Shown here one piece after another: positions 16,413 through 61,045 of a DNA stretch of 64,000 nt. How positions within the stretch are numbered: the first letter of the stretch is position 1; every line of letters begins with the position of its first letter. Below the pieces are notes generated by a model. The model was not told the DNA's origin. It was given only the letters and a program-made list of their open reading frames with translations, and searched no databases. Source of the DNA: Spirochaetia bacterium (GTDB lineage Bacteria > Spirochaetota > Spirochaetia > Sphaerochaetales > Sphaerochaetaceae); contig JAKVOU010000001.1 of the NCBI GenBank assembly GCA_022482625.1, positions 868,001-932,000 of the forward strand. Direction: 5' to 3'. Made by a program: the position numbers and the translations under genes.

Positions 16413-16546
16413 TATGATTCTCCTTTGCAGGTAGGCTGTATCCTATGCTACTGACACAATAATTCTGATTGCCATCAATTGCAAGCAAGCCATACTTCCG
16501 TCACTCCTCTGGAAGCAAAGAAAGAAATACGATATAGTCATGAGAG

Positions 16547-16602
16547 TCGGGAATGAAGTTCTCCCTTGGCATAGCCAGAAACGCAGCTGCTGATGACTTC
16601 TG
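16547..16602 (+). ncRNA. Fluoride riboswitch (crcB motif)
   Basis: The segment has the crcB-motif order: first stem GGGAATGAAGTTCTCCC, an internal hairpin TTGGC/GCCA, AAACGCAG, then the conserved GCTGATGACTTCT. It lies directly before two fluoride-channel genes, the expected context. The 3' strand CTTCTG can pair with CAGAAAG at 16610-16616, next to the AAAGGA ribosome-binding site, so fluoride probably exposes the site and turns on translation. The structural reading is mine; no covariance search was run. Confidence 0.85.
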
Positions 16603-16626
16603 AATACTACAGAAAGGATTTTGTAC

Positions 16627-38704: not shown

Positions 38705-38810
38705 AACATCAACGTGCAGGAACCTCCAACTATTTCCTTTAAAATTCTTGAGCAACAGCAAGTATGATTACCATATAGTTGAAGCAGACCATGGATATAT
38801 GGTAGTATAT

Positions 38811-38877
38811 CGGAGAAAGGGAAAGAAGTTCTCCCACGGCTATGCCGAAACCGCTTGTCAAAGCTGATGACTTCTGT
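38811..38877 (+). ncRNA. Second fluoride-riboswitch-like element
   Basis: Same order as the crcB-linked element at 16547: AAGGGAAAGAAGTTCTCCC, hairpin ACGGC/GCCG, AAACCGC, then AAGCTGATGACTTCTG. It differs at one usually conserved spot, reading GAAAG where the first copy reads GAATG, which could weaken ligand binding. No fluoride-channel gene follows; two MutS-like genes do. From memory, mutS genes are among those reported downstream of crcB motifs. Confidence 0.75.
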
Positions 38878-38902
38878 GTCAGGCAGAATCGTCAGTTTTT
38901 TT
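38864..38902 (+). terminator. Intrinsic terminator overlapping the riboswitch aptamer
   Basis: CTGATGACTTCTG pairs with CAGAATCGTCAG around a 7-base loop, followed by seven T. The 5' arm is the conserved 3' strand of the aptamer, so aptamer and terminator exclude each other: ligand binding should allow read-through into the MutS-like genes. Confidence 0.8.
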
Positions 38903-42947: not shown

Positions 42948-44558
42948 CTAATGTTTATTCAAAGAAGCAGTTGCCTGTTCTTTTTTCATTTGCTGTTTAT
43001 GCTGATACATCAGTTTGTCAGCTTTCTGTACCAATGCATCGACACCCATATCATTGTTTTCCTTAATGTCCAGACAACCATAACTCACACTCCATGGTAT
43101 AGAACAGTTCACTTCCCTACCCTTTTCTCCAAGGATTGAGTTGATCTCAAGAAGATGTTCCTTAGCCATCGAAAGGGATTCCACCTCACAGACAGCGAGA
43201 AACTCATCTCCTCCAAACCGAGCGATTCTGTCACTACCATGCATAAATTGTCGCAGTACCCTGACAAATGTACTGATAAACAAATCTCCTTTGTCATGTC
43301 CAAGCTGATCATTGATTCTTTTTAGGTTGTTCAAATCAAAAAAACAAAGAATAGGCGAGGCCCCAGCATTCTGGCTTTTATCTATAGCTTGTTGGATAAA
43401 TTTGAATCCAGCTTTCCTGTTGTAAGTTCCCGTCATGATATCGCGAGTAGCGTCATGATACAATTGTTTATGTAATTCTATGTTTCGTTCTTCCTTACGA
43501 GTCCACAGATATGCCAATAGTAATATGATTGGAATTGCCACAAAAGCCAATAATAAAAAAACTTGCTTAGCCAAGGAAATATATTTTGCCCAACGGTTCG
43601 GCGAAAGTTCGGCAAGTATAAATAACTCTGGACTGTCATGACCAATTGAAAAAGTTTCGAACTGTGGATTCGTATTTAACTCAAGAATCTTGAATACTAC
43701 AGGGTTAGAGGAGTCAACCAAAGAAAAGAAGTCTAGACGATGTCTATAGGTATAAAGTCCAGAAGAATTCTGCACCATCATTTTCCAGAGATCGGGATTT
43801 TGCTGTTCAATGTTTTTCCCAATGAAACTTTTCAACTCGCTGTCTTCACCTACTACACTACCTAAGCAGTTGCCATGTGAATCTATCACATGAATGATAC
43901 ATTCTTCTTCATAGGCAAATTTGTGTAACAAGGCTTCCACATCATCGGCAGACCAATCGAGAATGAGAAAACCAAGTGGGTCTGAAGTTGTTTTATCATA
44001 AACTTTAACTATATACCGAATGTTTGCAGGAAAAGTTTCATTTAGACTGGTCAAAACCATATTGAGATTTTGCGGATACACATGGATGTAATCTTTCTGG
44101 AAATTTTGGAATAAAGAAAAAAAAGAAAAAGAATTATCAGCTGTTTTCTGTATATCGTCATTGTATATAATTTTTATGCCCGAATCATCCCTTTTGATTC
44201 TCAGGAATTCTGTACCTGATGTATCAAACAATTGTATGGAGCGATAACCTTGATGACTTTGAAGTAATGAAGTAGCAATGTTACTGAAAGCATTTATAGC
44301 CTTTGGGTTATTATAGAAAACTTGGTCATTTCCCCCAACACTAGCAAGAAAAAAGACATCTTCGATAACTGTTTCTTTTCTTTCTGACATCCGGGTAATG
44401 AGAACCTGTAAATGTTGAAGTTCATTCTGCTCAAATACAATACGTTTTTCATGATTGGTAAATACATATACGGCAAACAACCATAGTATTAGTATTCCCC
44501 ATGACAGTATAAAAAGAAGAAAAGTACGCTTAATAACAAATACCGATATTTTTTTCAT
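42948..44558 (-). CDS. Membrane diguanylate cyclase with periplasmic sensor domain
   Basis: 536 residues. Helix one at about 12-32, a long periplasmic sensor (about 33-305, probably a Cache-type fold), helix two about 315-335 (VFLLLAFVAIPIILLLAYLW), then a GGDEF domain with RFGGDEFLAVCE intact, so c-di-GMP synthesis is predicted. The inhibitory I-site, RxxD in many cyclases, reads HGSD, so product inhibition may be weak. A degraded copy of part of this sensor domain lies 260 bases upstream of its start. Confidence 0.9.
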   Translation of the reverse strand: MKKISVFVIKRTFLLFILSWGILILWLFAVYVFTNHEKRIVFEQNELQHLQVLITRMSERKETVIEDVFFLASVGGNDQVFYNNPKAINAFSNIATSLLQSHQGYRSIQLFDTSGTEFLRIKRDDSGIKIIYNDDIQKTADNSFSFFSLFQNFQKDYIHVYPQNLNMVLTSLNETFPANIRYIVKVYDKTTSDPLGFLILDWSADDVEALLHKFAYEEECIIHVIDSHGNCLGSVVGEDSELKSFIGKNIEQQNPDLWKMMVQNSSGLYTYRHRLDFFSLVDSSNPVVFKILELNTNPQFETFSIGHDSPELFILAELSPNRWAKYISLAKQVFLLLAFVAIPIILLLAYLWTRKEERNIELHKQLYHDATRDIMTGTYNRKAGFKFIQQAIDKSQNAGASPILCFFDLNNLKRINDQLGHDKGDLFISTFVRVLRQFMHGSDRIARFGGDEFLAVCEVESLSMAKEHLLEINSILGEKGREVNCSIPWSVSYGCLDIKENNDMGVDALVQKADKLMYQHKQQMKKEQATASLNKH

Positions 44559-54628: not shown

Positions 54629-57037
54629 TCAGAACCACCGGGATTGCTGTGGCTCCTTACAGTTTGTTTCCAGCTTTGCGACAGTTTTGTCAAAACGGGC
54701 ATCGTGCATAAACAAAGCTCCTGTAGGACAATTCTTTATACAAGCACAGCAGTGTATACAACTGCTCTTGTCTTTTGTTGTCCAGGCATGGGTAGGACAG
54801 ACCACATAACAGGATCCACAATTGATGCAAAGTGTCTGTTTTTTTTCCGGCATATAGGGATCTTCCATAGGGGCAATGCCCTTACGGTAAGGCCTGTTAC
54901 CTGGAATCTTACCGATTTCACCGCTTTTGCGACGCTCTTTGACTTTCTCTGCAAATTGTCTGATAACAGCCATATCAGCCGAAGAAGGACGATAGGTACC
55001 GACCTTGCTGGTAAAACTGTGTTCGGCAACTATTGCTATAGCCCCAATTACCCTGCCACCTTTTGCACTGACAAGATCAGATGCTTCAATCAACGCATCA
55101 TCAAAGGCTCTGTTGCCATAGGTTGCCACAAGTGCCACATCAGCGCCTTTGAAATTTGCCTGTTCCTTCAGATATTCCGCAAAAACAGAGGGAACTCTCC
55201 CCGCATACACGGGAAACGAAACTACGGCAAGTTCCCTGTCAGTTGCAGAAAAGTTTTTTTTTCTTTCTTCGGGCAAAGTAACATTGAAGACTGATTCCTT
55301 GCAGATCAATGATGCCAAGTAAGAACCACAAAGCAGACTGGAACTTGTCGGCGAAAAAGAAAGATGTTTCACCGTACAATTCTTCTGATGTATCTGATCT
55401 ACAAAGAATGCCTCAAATTTGGCAGCAGGCAGGGGTTTGGAAAAATAATAGCCCTGTGCATAAGGGCAACCGATCGAATTAAGATACTTTGCATCCTCCT
55501 CAAGCTCAACACCTTCCGCTATAACAGCTAGGTCAAGCTCCTTGGCAATGCCCATTATCAAGCGAAGAATAGCCCTTTTGCTCGTCCAGTTGGACCTGCG
55601 GTTGTTGACAAAAAGCATATCAAGTTTCAATGCATCCACAGGTACTTCACTGAGCATATTGAGGCTCGAATAGCCAGAGCCGAAATCATCCATTTCAATA
55701 TAGAATCCCCGATGTCCAAGTTCATTTACGACTTCAATCAATTGGGTCTGGCTCTGCGTATAAGCTGATTCAGTGATTTCTATATGCAACATATCCGGAT
55801 CAATCCCATACTGTTTGACCAATGCTGTCAATTGGTCACAAAGTCCTTCCTCATAGATGTCAAGCCTGGACATATTAACTGAAATCGGAACAACAGGAAT
55901 TCCTGCTTTCTTCCATTGTGCCAACTGTCTGCAAGCTTCCTTCCAGACATATTTATCCAGTTCGATGATAAAACCATTTTTTTCGAACAATGGAATAAAC
56001 ATTGCAGGAGAAAGAAAACCTCTGGAAGGATTATCCCATCGGACCAAGGCTTCTGCACCGATGACAGTACCTGTCGAAAGTTCCCATTTGGGCTGATAGT
56101 ATACAACAAACTGATGTTCTTTGAGTGCATTTTCCATCTGCAGGACAATTTCTTGTTCCTGGAGCATCTGTTCATACATTTCCGGAAGGAAGTGTGCAAC
56201 ATGCACATCATACTTGCCTTTGATTTCAGACAGTGCCATTTTTGCCAAACCGCACATGGTACTGATTTCCTGAGACACGTCATTGATTCCATAGATACCG
56301 AACTGTATATGCATTGGAATTGACAACAGCACCTTCTGATGACAAGTCTTTGCAATATCTTCCAAGATTTTTTCTATATTGCTGCAGTGTCGTATCAGAA
56401 TAAAATAGCAATCTGCATATGACCGCGTCATGACAGCTGATGGCAGGTTTCGTTTCAGCAGTTCAGCCAGGCATTGCAATACATGGTCACCCGTATCTGT
56501 TCCATATATTTTATTTATCAGCTTGAACCTGACAATATCACAGTAAATCAAATCATAGGATCCGCTGGAATTGGCATCCAATTCTTTCCTTGCTTGCTGG
56601 TAAAATCCATCTTCATTGAGCAAACCGGTCAAAGCATCATGTTGCCCATCATTGACTGTCTTCTCATTTTCAGTAGCAGCGGTCAACATCGTCAAAGTTT
56701 CTGACAATGTATGCATATCGAGACAACGGTGAAACACATGCGTTTTTGTCAGATATTTTTCCAAATCCCCCACTGTCGATTCCAAAGTAGTCAGAGGGAT
56801 AAAGGCGCCTACACCCTCTTTTTCCACTTTATCGAGGAATTCATAGACTTCAGAACAGGGACTCCGCAAGTCAAGCACTACGGCAGCAATATATTTCAAA
56901 TGCCATTGAAGAAATGATAAAGACTCTTTTTCATACTGTACGACATGTGTCTGAAATATTTCCCCCAACACTTGTGACAGTTCGCGGCCTCTTTCAAGGT
57001 CATTGCTTACTATCAACACAAGATGTGCATTAGACAA
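54629..57037 (-). CDS. Fusion: receiver-like, degenerate GGDEF, EAL phosphodiesterase, flavodoxin, 2x[4Fe-4S] ferredoxin
   Basis: 802 residues in one uninterrupted frame. About 1-125: receiver-like domain (AAVVLDLRSP). About 130-285: GGDEF domain whose signature reads YADCYF (207-212), so inactive as a cyclase. About 300-550: EAL domain with all catalytic residues visible: GAEALVRW, ISVNMS, EITES, DDFGSGYSSL, LKLD, AEGVE, AQGYYF. About 555-705: flavodoxin-like domain (LSFSPTSSS, SFPVYAGRVPSVF). About 735-775: two 4Fe-4S motifs, Cys 737/740/743/747 and 760/763/766/770. TTG start at 57037 is supported by AAGGAGG. The last two domains resemble stand-alone EFR1-type proteins. Confidence 0.88.
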   Translation of the reverse strand: MSNAHLVLIVSNDLERGRELSQVLGEIFQTHVVQYEKESLSFLQWHLKYIAAVVLDLRSPCSEVYEFLDKVEKEGVGAFIPLTTLESTVGDLEKYLTKTHVFHRCLDMHTLSETLTMLTAATENEKTVNDGQHDALTGLLNEDGFYQQARKELDANSSGSYDLIYCDIVRFKLINKIYGTDTGDHVLQCLAELLKRNLPSAVMTRSYADCYFILIRHCSNIEKILEDIAKTCHQKVLLSIPMHIQFGIYGINDVSQEISTMCGLAKMALSEIKGKYDVHVAHFLPEMYEQMLQEQEIVLQMENALKEHQFVVYYQPKWELSTGTVIGAEALVRWDNPSRGFLSPAMFIPLFEKNGFIIELDKYVWKEACRQLAQWKKAGIPVVPISVNMSRLDIYEEGLCDQLTALVKQYGIDPDMLHIEITESAYTQSQTQLIEVVNELGHRGFYIEMDDFGSGYSSLNMLSEVPVDALKLDMLFVNNRRSNWTSKRAILRLIMGIAKELDLAVIAEGVELEEDAKYLNSIGCPYAQGYYFSKPLPAAKFEAFFVDQIHQKNCTVKHLSFSPTSSSLLCGSYLASLICKESVFNVTLPEERKKNFSATDRELAVVSFPVYAGRVPSVFAEYLKEQANFKGADVALVATYGNRAFDDALIEASDLVSAKGGRVIGAIAIVAEHSFTSKVGTYRPSSADMAVIRQFAEKVKERRKSGEIGKIPGNRPYRKGIAPMEDPYMPEKKQTLCINCGSCYVVCPTHAWTTKDKSSCIHCCACIKNCPTGALFMHDARFDKTVAKLETNCKEPQQSRWF

Positions 57038-57256
57038 AACCCCCCTCCTTGGTATCAACAATATCCTTGCTGCATGGAAAAAAATATCCAAACAGCAACC
57101 TTTTCCCTTACACTTCTTCCTTGATACCACAAGTTTGATTGTATATCAACTTAACATAAAATTACTTTTTAACCATTTGTTGATTATTTTGTAAGAAATC
57201 TGTGTTCTTGCACAAGGACGTACTTATATACTATCTTAGTAAATAAGGAGATATTT

Positions 57257-58058: not shown

Positions 58059-59240
58059 TTACAACCCTGTAAACAGGAGTAAATCTTCCCTACCGCCGTT
58101 AACAACCAAATAGTTGTCTAAACCATAATACTCAGCATAACAGGAATCAAACTTGGCTGAGGTTGACGCATATAGGCTGTCAACGGTAATATCACCTCCG
58201 TCATTGGCGGGAATATCATCAGCAAGCCCTGTGAACGTCTTCCAATCCCAGCCGATTGCCTCATCCATGCTTCTGGTAAGGCATCCATGGGCAGGAGAGA
58301 TATCCGTATCATCACCTGCTCTATGGGTTGAATTCGTGGCTGTCATAACGTATACATCATCATATTGCGTTGCCGTTGCCGACGAAAACAATTTGTCCCA
58401 GATTGATGAGCCATCATACTCATCATTCTGGGTATTGGTCGTATAGGTGTCTTCATCAACAGCAACGCCACTGAAGCAACTGTCAAGGATAATGAATTTC
58501 TTACCTGGAATAGATGATATACAATTAAGCAAGTCGCTACATTTTAAAAAATTATCTCTATATGAGTATCTATAATGTTCTGTAACAGAAACAAACTCCT
58601 GACATAAACAAAGTGAACCATCATCAGTGCCATGTCCGCTATAGTAGAAAATGACCAAATCGTCATCAGTTACAGTAATAGGCGTGTCCGTACCAACAGG
58701 TGTAAGATCAAGGGGAAAATCATCCAAATCTTCTGATGCATCACCTACAACATAACAATACTGAGAAATATCCGTACTATTCGAAACATTATCAAGCTTT
58801 TCAAGATTTCTTAATAGATTTTTAACATGCTTCTTCGTAGGGCTCAAAGCATCATTAATAATTGAATCATGTATGCCATCTCCGATTCCTTCACTCGTTT
58901 CTTCCAAAGTTTTTTGGTTCATAGGAATTATATACAAGGGTGTATTGTTCTTCGAAGCCAAAGCAGAAAAAGAATGTGCCACGTCTGCAGCATCATTCAA
59001 TGGCCCTTCCAATGTTAGCCCATATTCCTCCACTCGTTGTGTGTTTAGATTACGAACAGGATAAACAATCTTATCATAATTCAGCGACACATCCACCAAC
59101 ACAATCTTTCCATAACCCTTATTTGTATCATGGGGAAGGATAAGGTCACAGGATGAAAGCATGAATACCAATATGGTAGCTAAGAATAACAGACAGTTGT
59201 TTGCTCCATGTTTCCTTTGACTTCGGTTATATCCATGCAT
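58059..59240 (-). CDS. Caspase-like (C14) lipoprotein
   Basis: 393 residues. N-terminal signal with lipobox MLSSC, so it is exported and lipid-anchored. The p20-like domain shows the catalytic His in VIFYYSGHGTDDGSL and Cys in KFIILDSCFSGVA, followed by VYVMTATNSTHRA. A long N-terminal part contains LNDAADVAHSFSAL, typical of bacterial metacaspases. Substrate is unknown; location suggests envelope or secreted protein processing. AGGGGA precedes the ATG by nine bases. Confidence 0.85.
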   Translation of the reverse strand: MHGYNRSQRKHGANNCLLFLATILVFMLSSCDLILPHDTNKGYGKIVLVDVSLNYDKIVYPVRNLNTQRVEEYGLTLEGPLNDAADVAHSFSALASKNNTPLYIIPMNQKTLEETSEGIGDGIHDSIINDALSPTKKHVKNLLRNLEKLDNVSNSTDISQYCYVVGDASEDLDDFPLDLTPVGTDTPITVTDDDLVIFYYSGHGTDDGSLCLCQEFVSVTEHYRYSYRDNFLKCSDLLNCISSIPGKKFIILDSCFSGVAVDEDTYTTNTQNDEYDGSSIWDKLFSSATATQYDDVYVMTATNSTHRAGDDTDISPAHGCLTRSMDEAIGWDWKTFTGLADDIPANDGGDITVDSLYASTSAKFDSCYAEYYGLDNYLVVNGGREDLLLFTGL

Positions 59241-59350: not shown

Positions 59351-60217
59351 TTATACCACAGTAAGCTTATCAATGATGGAAGTAAAGAATTCCTGCCCCC
59401 AAATTGAAAATTGATTTTGGTCTTTGACAAAAGGTCGGACATCTTCTACTGCCTGTTTGAAATCAACTTTCTCGAATTTCTCTCTAAGCATATGCTTCAG
59501 GTCCAATAGCCCAAAACTGTCTTTCCAATCTAGCTGTCCGGTTTGGATAAGACGGCACTGAAGATGAAAAAGATTTACTGGAATCCCTTGTGAAAGGTAC
59601 CAAATGAAATCATAGTAATCACGACCTTTTACTCGATTTTGCCATCCTCGGCACAAAAGAGCATGTATTTTTCCTGCAAACAGTGACGGAGCATCATACA
59701 GACATACAGAATGTGATGAAGGCAGAAGTGTATATTTGTTTTCATAGGAAGCACCGTCTGGAGGATCTGTGTCTATTTCAAATTTAATTTTCAATTTCTC
59801 ATTTGGAGCAATTCCTGAAATAGGAACCTCAGAAGGTATAATGTTAAGAATCTGTATCGAGGTAGTACCTTTGATAAAAGCAGAAGTAACTGCAGAAGAT
59901 TTAGTTTTCTGTTTTGATTCCACAGTCATTGTGAATCCATTGGCAGTAAGTTCATCTTCTATGGAAGAAAAATAACGAGTCAAATCAAACGTACCGTCAG
60001 ATTTCTTAAGTGAAAAATCCAAATCTTCTGAAAAACGATCCAGTCCATAAAAAATCCGCAATGCTGAGCCACCATAAAAAGCTGATCCATCAAAAAAATC
60101 TGTCCTACTTAACCCACACAAAGCTATTTCTTGGATAATTTCCTTCAAGGCATTACGATAATCAACAACATCCTTGCACTTATATTTCTTCAGCATTGTT
60201 GCTACAGCACTGGTCAT
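59351..60217 (-). CDS. AbiEii/AbiGii-type nucleotidyltransferase toxin
   Basis: 288 residues. GGSALRIFYGLDRFSEDLDFSL carries the nucleotidyltransferase GGS and D-x-D motifs of AbiEii toxins, which target tRNA or related substrates and stop growth. The segment RVKGRDYYDFIWYLSQG is the usual C-terminal motif. Start ATG 60217 follows the antitoxin stop by one base, with AAGGAG inside the antitoxin end. Complete and intact second gene of a type IV-like toxin-antitoxin pair. Confidence 0.88.
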   Translation of the reverse strand: MTSAVATMLKKYKCKDVVDYRNALKEIIQEIALCGLSRTDFFDGSAFYGGSALRIFYGLDRFSEDLDFSLKKSDGTFDLTRYFSSIEDELTANGFTMTVESKQKTKSSAVTSAFIKGTTSIQILNIIPSEVPISGIAPNEKLKIKFEIDTDPPDGASYENKYTLLPSSHSVCLYDAPSLFAGKIHALLCRGWQNRVKGRDYYDFIWYLSQGIPVNLFHLQCRLIQTGQLDWKDSFGLLDLKHMLREKFEKVDFKQAVEDVRPFVKDQNQFSIWGQEFFTSIIDKLTVV

Positions 60218-60218
60218 A

Positions 60219-60809
60219 TCAACTCTTTTCTCCTTCTTCAAGCAATTTCAAGAAAAGCATCAAGTTTCTCTTCCGATATCTGGGAGCCAAAAAATCAACA
60301 TCTTTCCTGTTCAATGAAAGCACATTTTCTGGTTCCATACGCCAAGATATAAATAAAAGCGTCCTTAATTGTGCAACAGTCTGTACAGGCTGACTTTTAT
60401 ATAACATATCACAGAGTGCTTTTTCTGGCGTAGCCATTTGCCAGCTATAGCTGCCCCCTTCCAATATGGTAACATCACAAGGAAAAACAGTTTCAGGAAT
60501 TGTACGATAGATGAATGTTCCAAATGGAGTCTGATAAGTCTTTATCTTGTTTTTCCTAAACACTGCCGAAGTGTATACATCTACACGCTCAGGGATAAGT
60601 CCATACCAAGCAAGTGCATATTCAAACGAAAGATAGGAGGGCCCGTAGATTGCAGATGCAAGGGCATAAGGAGGAGCATCCTTGTCAGTTTCAAAGAGAC
60701 CCCGCCGAATTTGTACCAAATCCCCATGTTTGACCATCTGTGTCATTTTTGATTTCGGCGATTTGTAATCTTTTAATGAAGCTCTTATAATCCGTGTATC
60801 CTGTAACAT
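60219..60809 (-). CDS. AbiEi-type antitoxin
   Basis: 196 residues, first gene of the pair. The N-terminal wing HTH (MTQMVKHGDLVQIRRGLFET) and LASAIYGPSYLSFEYALAWYGLIPE match AbiEi/DUF6088-like antitoxins that bind promoter DNA and neutralise AbiEii without direct contact. Start ATG 60809 with GGAG seven bases upstream. Operon order antitoxin then toxin is the normal AbiE layout. Confidence 0.85.
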   Translation of the reverse strand: MLQDTRIIRASLKDYKSPKSKMTQMVKHGDLVQIRRGLFETDKDAPPYALASAIYGPSYLSFEYALAWYGLIPERVDVYTSAVFRKNKIKTYQTPFGTFIYRTIPETVFPCDVTILEGGSYSWQMATPEKALCDMLYKSQPVQTVAQLRTLLFISWRMEPENVLSLNRKDVDFLAPRYRKRNLMLFLKLLEEGEKS

Positions 60810-61045
60810 TTTTTCTCCAGCAAGTATGATTATATCGTACTTTCTGGAGAAAATCAATTAAAGCATAAGGCAGAATCATTGAACAGCTATAATTGGGTAA
60901 ACAAAAACCACAATTCTGCCATTGCTACTTCCTCCTTGAAATATGAGACTTGCAAGCCCCTATTGGAATTGCCAGCAAAGCCTCCGTGAGACTTTCACTC
61001 AAACTTGATAATACATATCTATACCCCTCATAAGAATAAGACAAA
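60810..61045. other. Short intergenic stretch, promoter side of AbiE pair
   Basis: About 235 bases without a gene; should hold the AbiE promoter. No clear operator repeat seen. Confidence 0.3.

Follow-up and report, generated by a model that had tools for sequence, protein, structure and literature searches.

In a treponeme-like bacterium of the Spirochaetia (family Sphaerochaetaceae), a c-di-GMP phosphodiesterase of the receiver-GGDEF-EAL type runs on, in the same reading frame, into an EFR1-type flavodoxin-like domain and a ferredoxin domain with two [4Fe-4S] cluster motifs. The gene lies in a 64,000-nucleotide stretch of contig JAKVOU010000001.1 (positions 868,001 to 932,000 of the forward strand), which was analysed as a whole and is called the window below. 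The domain assignment is correct, and the fusion is real and conserved. From conserved residues and structure models, we give an even chance to the reading that the protein is a c-di-GMP phosphodiesterase gated by its C-terminal redox module.

The preliminary description of the window had placed one 802-codon frame on the minus strand and had divided it into a receiver-like end, a degenerate GGDEF domain, a complete EAL domain and a flavodoxin-ferredoxin C-terminus. The frame is uninterrupted, with no internal stop, and each of these parts was recovered by Pfam and NCBIfam searches, alignment or structure prediction (Table 1).

Table 1. Features of the fusion gene. Coordinates are those of the window; residues are numbered along the protein.
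Feature	Coordinates	Strand	Basis
Whole fusion gene, 802 aa + stop: receiver-like / degenerate GGDEF / EAL / flavodoxin-like / 2x[4Fe-4S]	54629..57037	-	open frame, Pfam, NCBIfam
Shine-Dalgarno AAGGAGG	57044..57050	-	6 nt before TTG start (57037-57035)
Receiver-like domain and signalling helix, residues 5-130	56648..57025	-	ortholog PF00072 matches, model fold, alignment
Degenerate GGDEF domain, residues 132-283, SYADCYF replacing GGDEF	56189..56644	-	PF00990 1.4e-16
EAL phosphodiesterase domain, residues 301-535	55433..56137	-	PF00563 1.7e-65; motif positions; MorA/MucR alignment
Junction between the last EAL helix (538-552) and flavodoxin strand 1 (555-560)	55373..55424	-	full-length model
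EFR1-type flavodoxin-like domain, residues 552-715	54893..55384	-	NF038196; model pLDDT 93.9; fold matches; Foldseek
2x[4Fe-4S] ferredoxin domain, residues 716-802	54632..54892	-	PF00037, two stretches

The EAL domain scores 221 bits against a Pfam gathering score of 31.3. In an alignment with the chains of MorA and MucR, whose type provides the best solved relatives in the PDB, all active-site positions of solved phosphodiesterase-type EAL domains are present, namely E329 of the EAL motif, N388 (SVN), E420 (ITES), the aspartate pair D450 and D451 (DDFG), K471, E508 (AEGVE) and Q528 (QG). The GG(D/E)EF active site of the preceding domain is absent and replaced by the signature SYADCYF; cyclase activity is therefore not expected, and the degenerate domain might bind a nucleotide and add a layer of control.

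Pfam recognised no receiver in the N-terminal region of the window protein itself; its orthologs match PF00072 (1.1e-23 and 1.5e-21), and in the full-length model residues 6-130 adopt a (beta-alpha)5 receiver fold with a long helix leading into the GGDEF domain. In the window protein the acidic pair has become Ser-Asn (LIVSND, against LIVDDN in the sister species G034) and the switch lysine of the TKPY motif is lost, while the acceptor aspartate is kept. The aligned receivers of three congeneric species (G034, G018 and G046) retain both the pair and the lysine, so the phosphorylation input seems to have been lost in the window species while the redox module was kept. The receiver is probably not phosphorylated there; that of G034 looks functional and would add further control. 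The two sensory inputs suggested in the preliminary description are thus supported in part: the receiver looks non-phosphorylatable in the window species, and its site is intact in the sister species.

The C-terminal 220 residues match the NCBIfam EFR1 model NF038196 with an E-value of 1.2e-20 and 74.6 bits, at or just under the curated cut-off of 75; the nearest stand-alone relatives score 55-70 bits from trimmed stretches. EFR1 proteins have the same flavodoxin-like N-terminal half followed by the two cluster motifs with their eight cysteines, but they are about 250 aa long and stand alone in the other genomes searched, whereas the module here forms the C-terminus of a phosphodiesterase. The cluster cysteines are arranged as two CxxCxxCxxxC motifs (737/740/743/747 and 760/763/766/770), and all eight are invariant in a family alignment of 25 relatives, as are Y93-G94 and P62 (C-terminal numbering) of the loops on the flavin side; the YGNR and PxYxG loops are retained in the module. 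A flavodoxin fold is confidently predicted: the AlphaFold2 model of the module reaches a pLDDT of 93.9 and a pTM of 0.91, over its first 160 residues it resembles FprA and flavodoxins with Z scores of 14-14.9 (best match FprA, Z 14.9, 137 residues at 2.6 A; flavodoxins 14.0-14.7), and Foldseek agrees. The FMN phosphate loop differs. It reads SPTSSS in the window protein, SPNGTS in G034 and SPTGxS/T in most stand-alone relatives, so that, compared with the consensus T/S-x-T-G-x-T/S, the window protein lacks the glycine and retains the Ser/Thr positions. Because of this altered loop, FMN binding by the module is plausible but not assured.

Only about two residues separate the last EAL helix from the first flavodoxin strand in the full-length model (pLDDT 86.4, pTM 0.56, a value at which the relative placement of domains is unreliable), and the lack of a long flexible linker would favour mechanical coupling between the two domains.

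The same full-length fusion is present in a second species of the genus, G034 (JAENWY010000004.1, 'Spirochaetaceae bacterium'), with 43% identity. The alignment extends over residues 5-802 of the window protein and one 816-codon frame, with the same junction and domain order, and the gene occupies the same chromosomal place in an independent metagenome assembly. Both loci share an ABC-F ATPase gene that converges on the 3' end of the fusion gene and, on the other side, a caspase-like lipoprotein gene and an ornithine-carbamoyltransferase-like (YgeW-type) gene; the caspase domain was assigned by Pfam, and the lipoprotein and the carbamoyltransferase by reading of the sequences. In the congeners G018 and G046, the orthologous gene at this place stops directly after the EAL domain; no remnant of the module was found downstream of it, where the convergent ABC-F gene lies immediately next to the EAL frame. 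From these two congeners without the fusion one might suspect that two genes were joined artificially, by misassembly or a sequencing error, but an identical junction in another species, assembled independently and 43% identical, rules this out for practical purposes and leaves it a negligible probability. The preliminary description had also considered that the two halves might be misjoined, or be separate in relatives with the fusion absent everywhere; G034 carries the fusion, and among the congeners only G018 and G046 are without it.

Two further features of this neighbourhood were recorded. The caspase-domain (Peptidase_C14) lipoprotein-like gene (window 58059-59240, minus strand) lies near the phosphodiesterase gene in all four congeners and is the adjacent upstream gene in three of them (other copies at L038:2736-3830, L098:4002-5069 and L099:6853-7869); the window copy had no match in the PADLOC defence library. 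An AbiEi/AbiEii toxin-antitoxin type pair (window 59351-60857, minus strand; PADLOC 3.2e-60 and 3.7e-108) sits between the conserved neighbours and is probably an insertion in the window lineage, since it is absent from the same place in G034, G018 and G046.

The origin of the fusion can be approached through the trees of its parts. A tree of 29 EFR1-type modules unites the two fused ones in one clade (100/97), whose sister group consists of two stand-alone proteins from the same family, in G049 and G085 (99/95). In the tree of the phosphodiesterase part (94/95), the window species lies outside a clade of G034 and the unfused G018 and G046, and the tree of the neighbouring ABC-F protein gives the same placement (99/95). 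The simplest history compatible with these sequences would be that the genes fused once, in the genus ancestor, where a stand-alone EFR1-type flavodoxin-ferredoxin gene joined in frame the 3' end of a receiver-degenerate GGDEF-EAL gene, and that the branch of G018 and G046 lost the module once and cleanly. Formally, one of the two fused species could have received the module from the other, or a common source could have been fused twice; the divergence is alike in the module (44-46% identity) and in the whole protein, which favours descent.

Identity between the two fused proteins is 58.0% in the EAL domain, 45.7% in the flavodoxin, 44.2% in the ferredoxin, 33.6% in the GGDEF and 24.1% in the receiver domain. 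Synonymous sites are saturated (pS 0.72-0.95), pN in the module is 0.39-0.41, and pN is lower than pS in every domain. Conservation is higher in the module than in the receiver and GGDEF parts, and pN is below pS throughout; the module is thus kept by selection. The phosphodiesterases of the two congeners without it look otherwise intact, so the module is not essential to the enzyme. The absence of decay in these enzymes, and the decay already under way in the receiver and GGDEF parts of the window protein, would fit a mere passenger or scaffold that stabilises or dimerises the phosphodiesterase, or co-localises it with a redox enzyme, and does not gate it. Retention of every cluster ligand at 44-46% identity, over a saturated synonymous distance, makes such a role improbable.

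The fusion is rare and apparently undescribed. It was seen in two of the 139 genomes of the family that were searched and in no further one in samples of the phylum with several hundred other spirochaete genomes. A scan of 84,980 species genomes with degenerate patterns, which detects close relatives only and is the sole coverage of Firmicutes, returned one fused locus, that of G034. EFR1 proteins are common in Firmicutes. No plasmid record covers 80% of the fusion protein, and no viral contig matched its peptide patterns. In phylum-wide searches, all stand-alone EFR1 relatives are frames of about 190-330 aa. Two longer EFR1 frames, in G051 (395 aa) and G123 (629 aa), were considered and rejected, as the stretches read show no signalling domain before the EFR1 part begins; C-terminal extensions of related phosphodiesterases were likewise discarded, those named by Pfam being GGDEF or PAS-GGDEF. 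In the literature searched, for the most part openly accessible, no paper deals with a fusion of EAL to flavodoxin and ferredoxin or with the function of EFR1 proteins.

In the gating mechanism that we propose, the module would bind two [4Fe-4S] clusters and probably a flavin, and would equilibrate with the low-potential electron carriers of the cell or react with oxidants. Transmitted by the last EAL helix, the redox change would reach the EAL dimer and turn hydrolysis of c-di-GMP on or off; the scheme leaves the activating state unspecified. An intact EAL active site, all eight cysteines, retained YGNR and PxYxG loops, a predicted flavodoxin fold, a tight junction and the precedents of redox-gated c-di-GMP enzymes argue for such gating; a phosphate loop that differs from that of most relatives argues against it, as does the lack of the module in two congeners. 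A link to FMN/Fe-S redox state, as the preliminary description had it, is the best reading, one that we infer.

Information might also flow in the opposite direction. The flavodoxin-ferredoxin unit would then be the output, an electron transfer protein or reductase, regulated or positioned by c-di-GMP binding or hydrolysis in the EAL domain, together with the GGDEF and receiver domains. Signalling domains usually come before the output, the redox unit is C-terminal here, and EFR1 proteins that stand alone are small redox proteins complete in themselves. However, the EAL catalytic set is full and not degenerate as in receptors, and the phosphodiesterase lineage exists without the module and carries other C-terminal additions (PAS-GGDEF, GGDEF) in relatives. 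We regard this reversal as unlikely.

The stand-alone EFR1 genes of G049 and G020 directly adjoin genes for ArsR-family regulators. Such neighbours of the nearest stand-alone modules fit a redox- or metal-responsive role. Many ArsR-family regulators respond to metals, and the ferredoxin cysteines are invariant whereas the flavin loop is altered; the module could thus sense the supply of metal or of iron-sulfur clusters, as under iron limitation or metal stress, instead of redox potential, with cluster loss altering phosphodiesterase activity. This version, too, has a low probability, as other members of the ArsR family sense redox and further signals, and the flavodoxin fold and the ring-side loops are kept. 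In two genera, the gene for an ArsR-family regulator immediately precedes a stand-alone EFR1 gene (L089:6229-7352 and L092:5701-6936), which hints that EFR1 proteins are metal- or redox-regulated.

The substrate of a gated phosphodiesterase is probably made in this organism, because the genome contains 16 GGDEF domains; a PF07238 search of the genome found no PilZ receptor. The window itself encodes a strong GGDEF domain (8.6e-29) in a 538-codon frame (42981-43451, minus strand). Elsewhere in the genome a second, divergent EFR1 protein stands alone (G000:C1:1226847-1234993, locus L093:4827-13849); a diguanylate cyclase (GGDEF, with a weak match to PAS) and a GGDEF-EAL phosphodiesterase are encoded no more than about 6 kb away. 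Two fluoride riboswitch matches in the window (16540-16609 and 38810-38883, both plus strand) score just over the Rfam gathering score.

Compared with known systems, the fusion shares its tandem GGDEF-EAL core and full EAL active site with phosphodiesterases of the MorA, MucR and DosP type. The sensors of these proteins (PAS, heme, MHYT) sit N-terminal, and none of them is known to have a flavodoxin-ferredoxin module. Receiver-degenerate GGDEF-EAL proteins of Treponemataceae and Clostridia (L012, L013, L039, L043 and L046) belong to the same lineage, with 35-39% identity. Their C-terminal additions are GGDEF or PAS-GGDEF and not redox proteins; the lineage thus tolerates such additions. In YkuI a regulatory domain, YkuI_C, follows the EAL domain, as the module does here. 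YkuI_C is a CACHE-like intracellular domain (PMC8846402), unrelated to the flavodoxin-ferredoxin module. Redox control of c-di-GMP enzymes has been described for RmcA and AxDGC2 (FAD-PAS), CdgF (flavin PAS), Bhr-HD-GYP (hemerythrin) and PdeC (CSS thiols) (PMC8846402), for the first two also in PMC12540587. These enzymes resemble the fusion in likely function, the redox-set turnover of c-di-GMP, and differ from it in the cofactor module; the census in the former review lists no flavodoxin or ferredoxin sensor, and neither word occurs in its text.

Redox-responsive c-di-GMP phosphodiesterases are a known class, in which the fusion probably represents a new type of sensor. More tentatively, and with somewhat less than even confidence, it may be the first c-di-GMP enzyme under direct control of a flavodoxin- or ferredoxin-type carrier in the same chain, so that messenger breakdown would be set by the reduction state of the low-potential electron pool through a C-terminal sensor. 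Known redox inputs to c-di-GMP signalling are heme, FAD-PAS, hemerythrin and thiols. In anaerobes, the supply of low-potential electrons by ferredoxin and flavodoxin is the central energy variable, and a covalent fusion of carrier and phosphodiesterase, kept across species, offers a concrete route, open to testing, from electron supply to the motile/sessile switch, for which the congeneric branch lacking only the module is a natural control. The fusion partner and the ArsR neighbour suggest a sensing or regulatory role for the widespread, uncharacterised EFR1 proteins. For the cell, the fusion probably makes it possible to tie the signal that decides between motile and sessile life to redox or electron supply.
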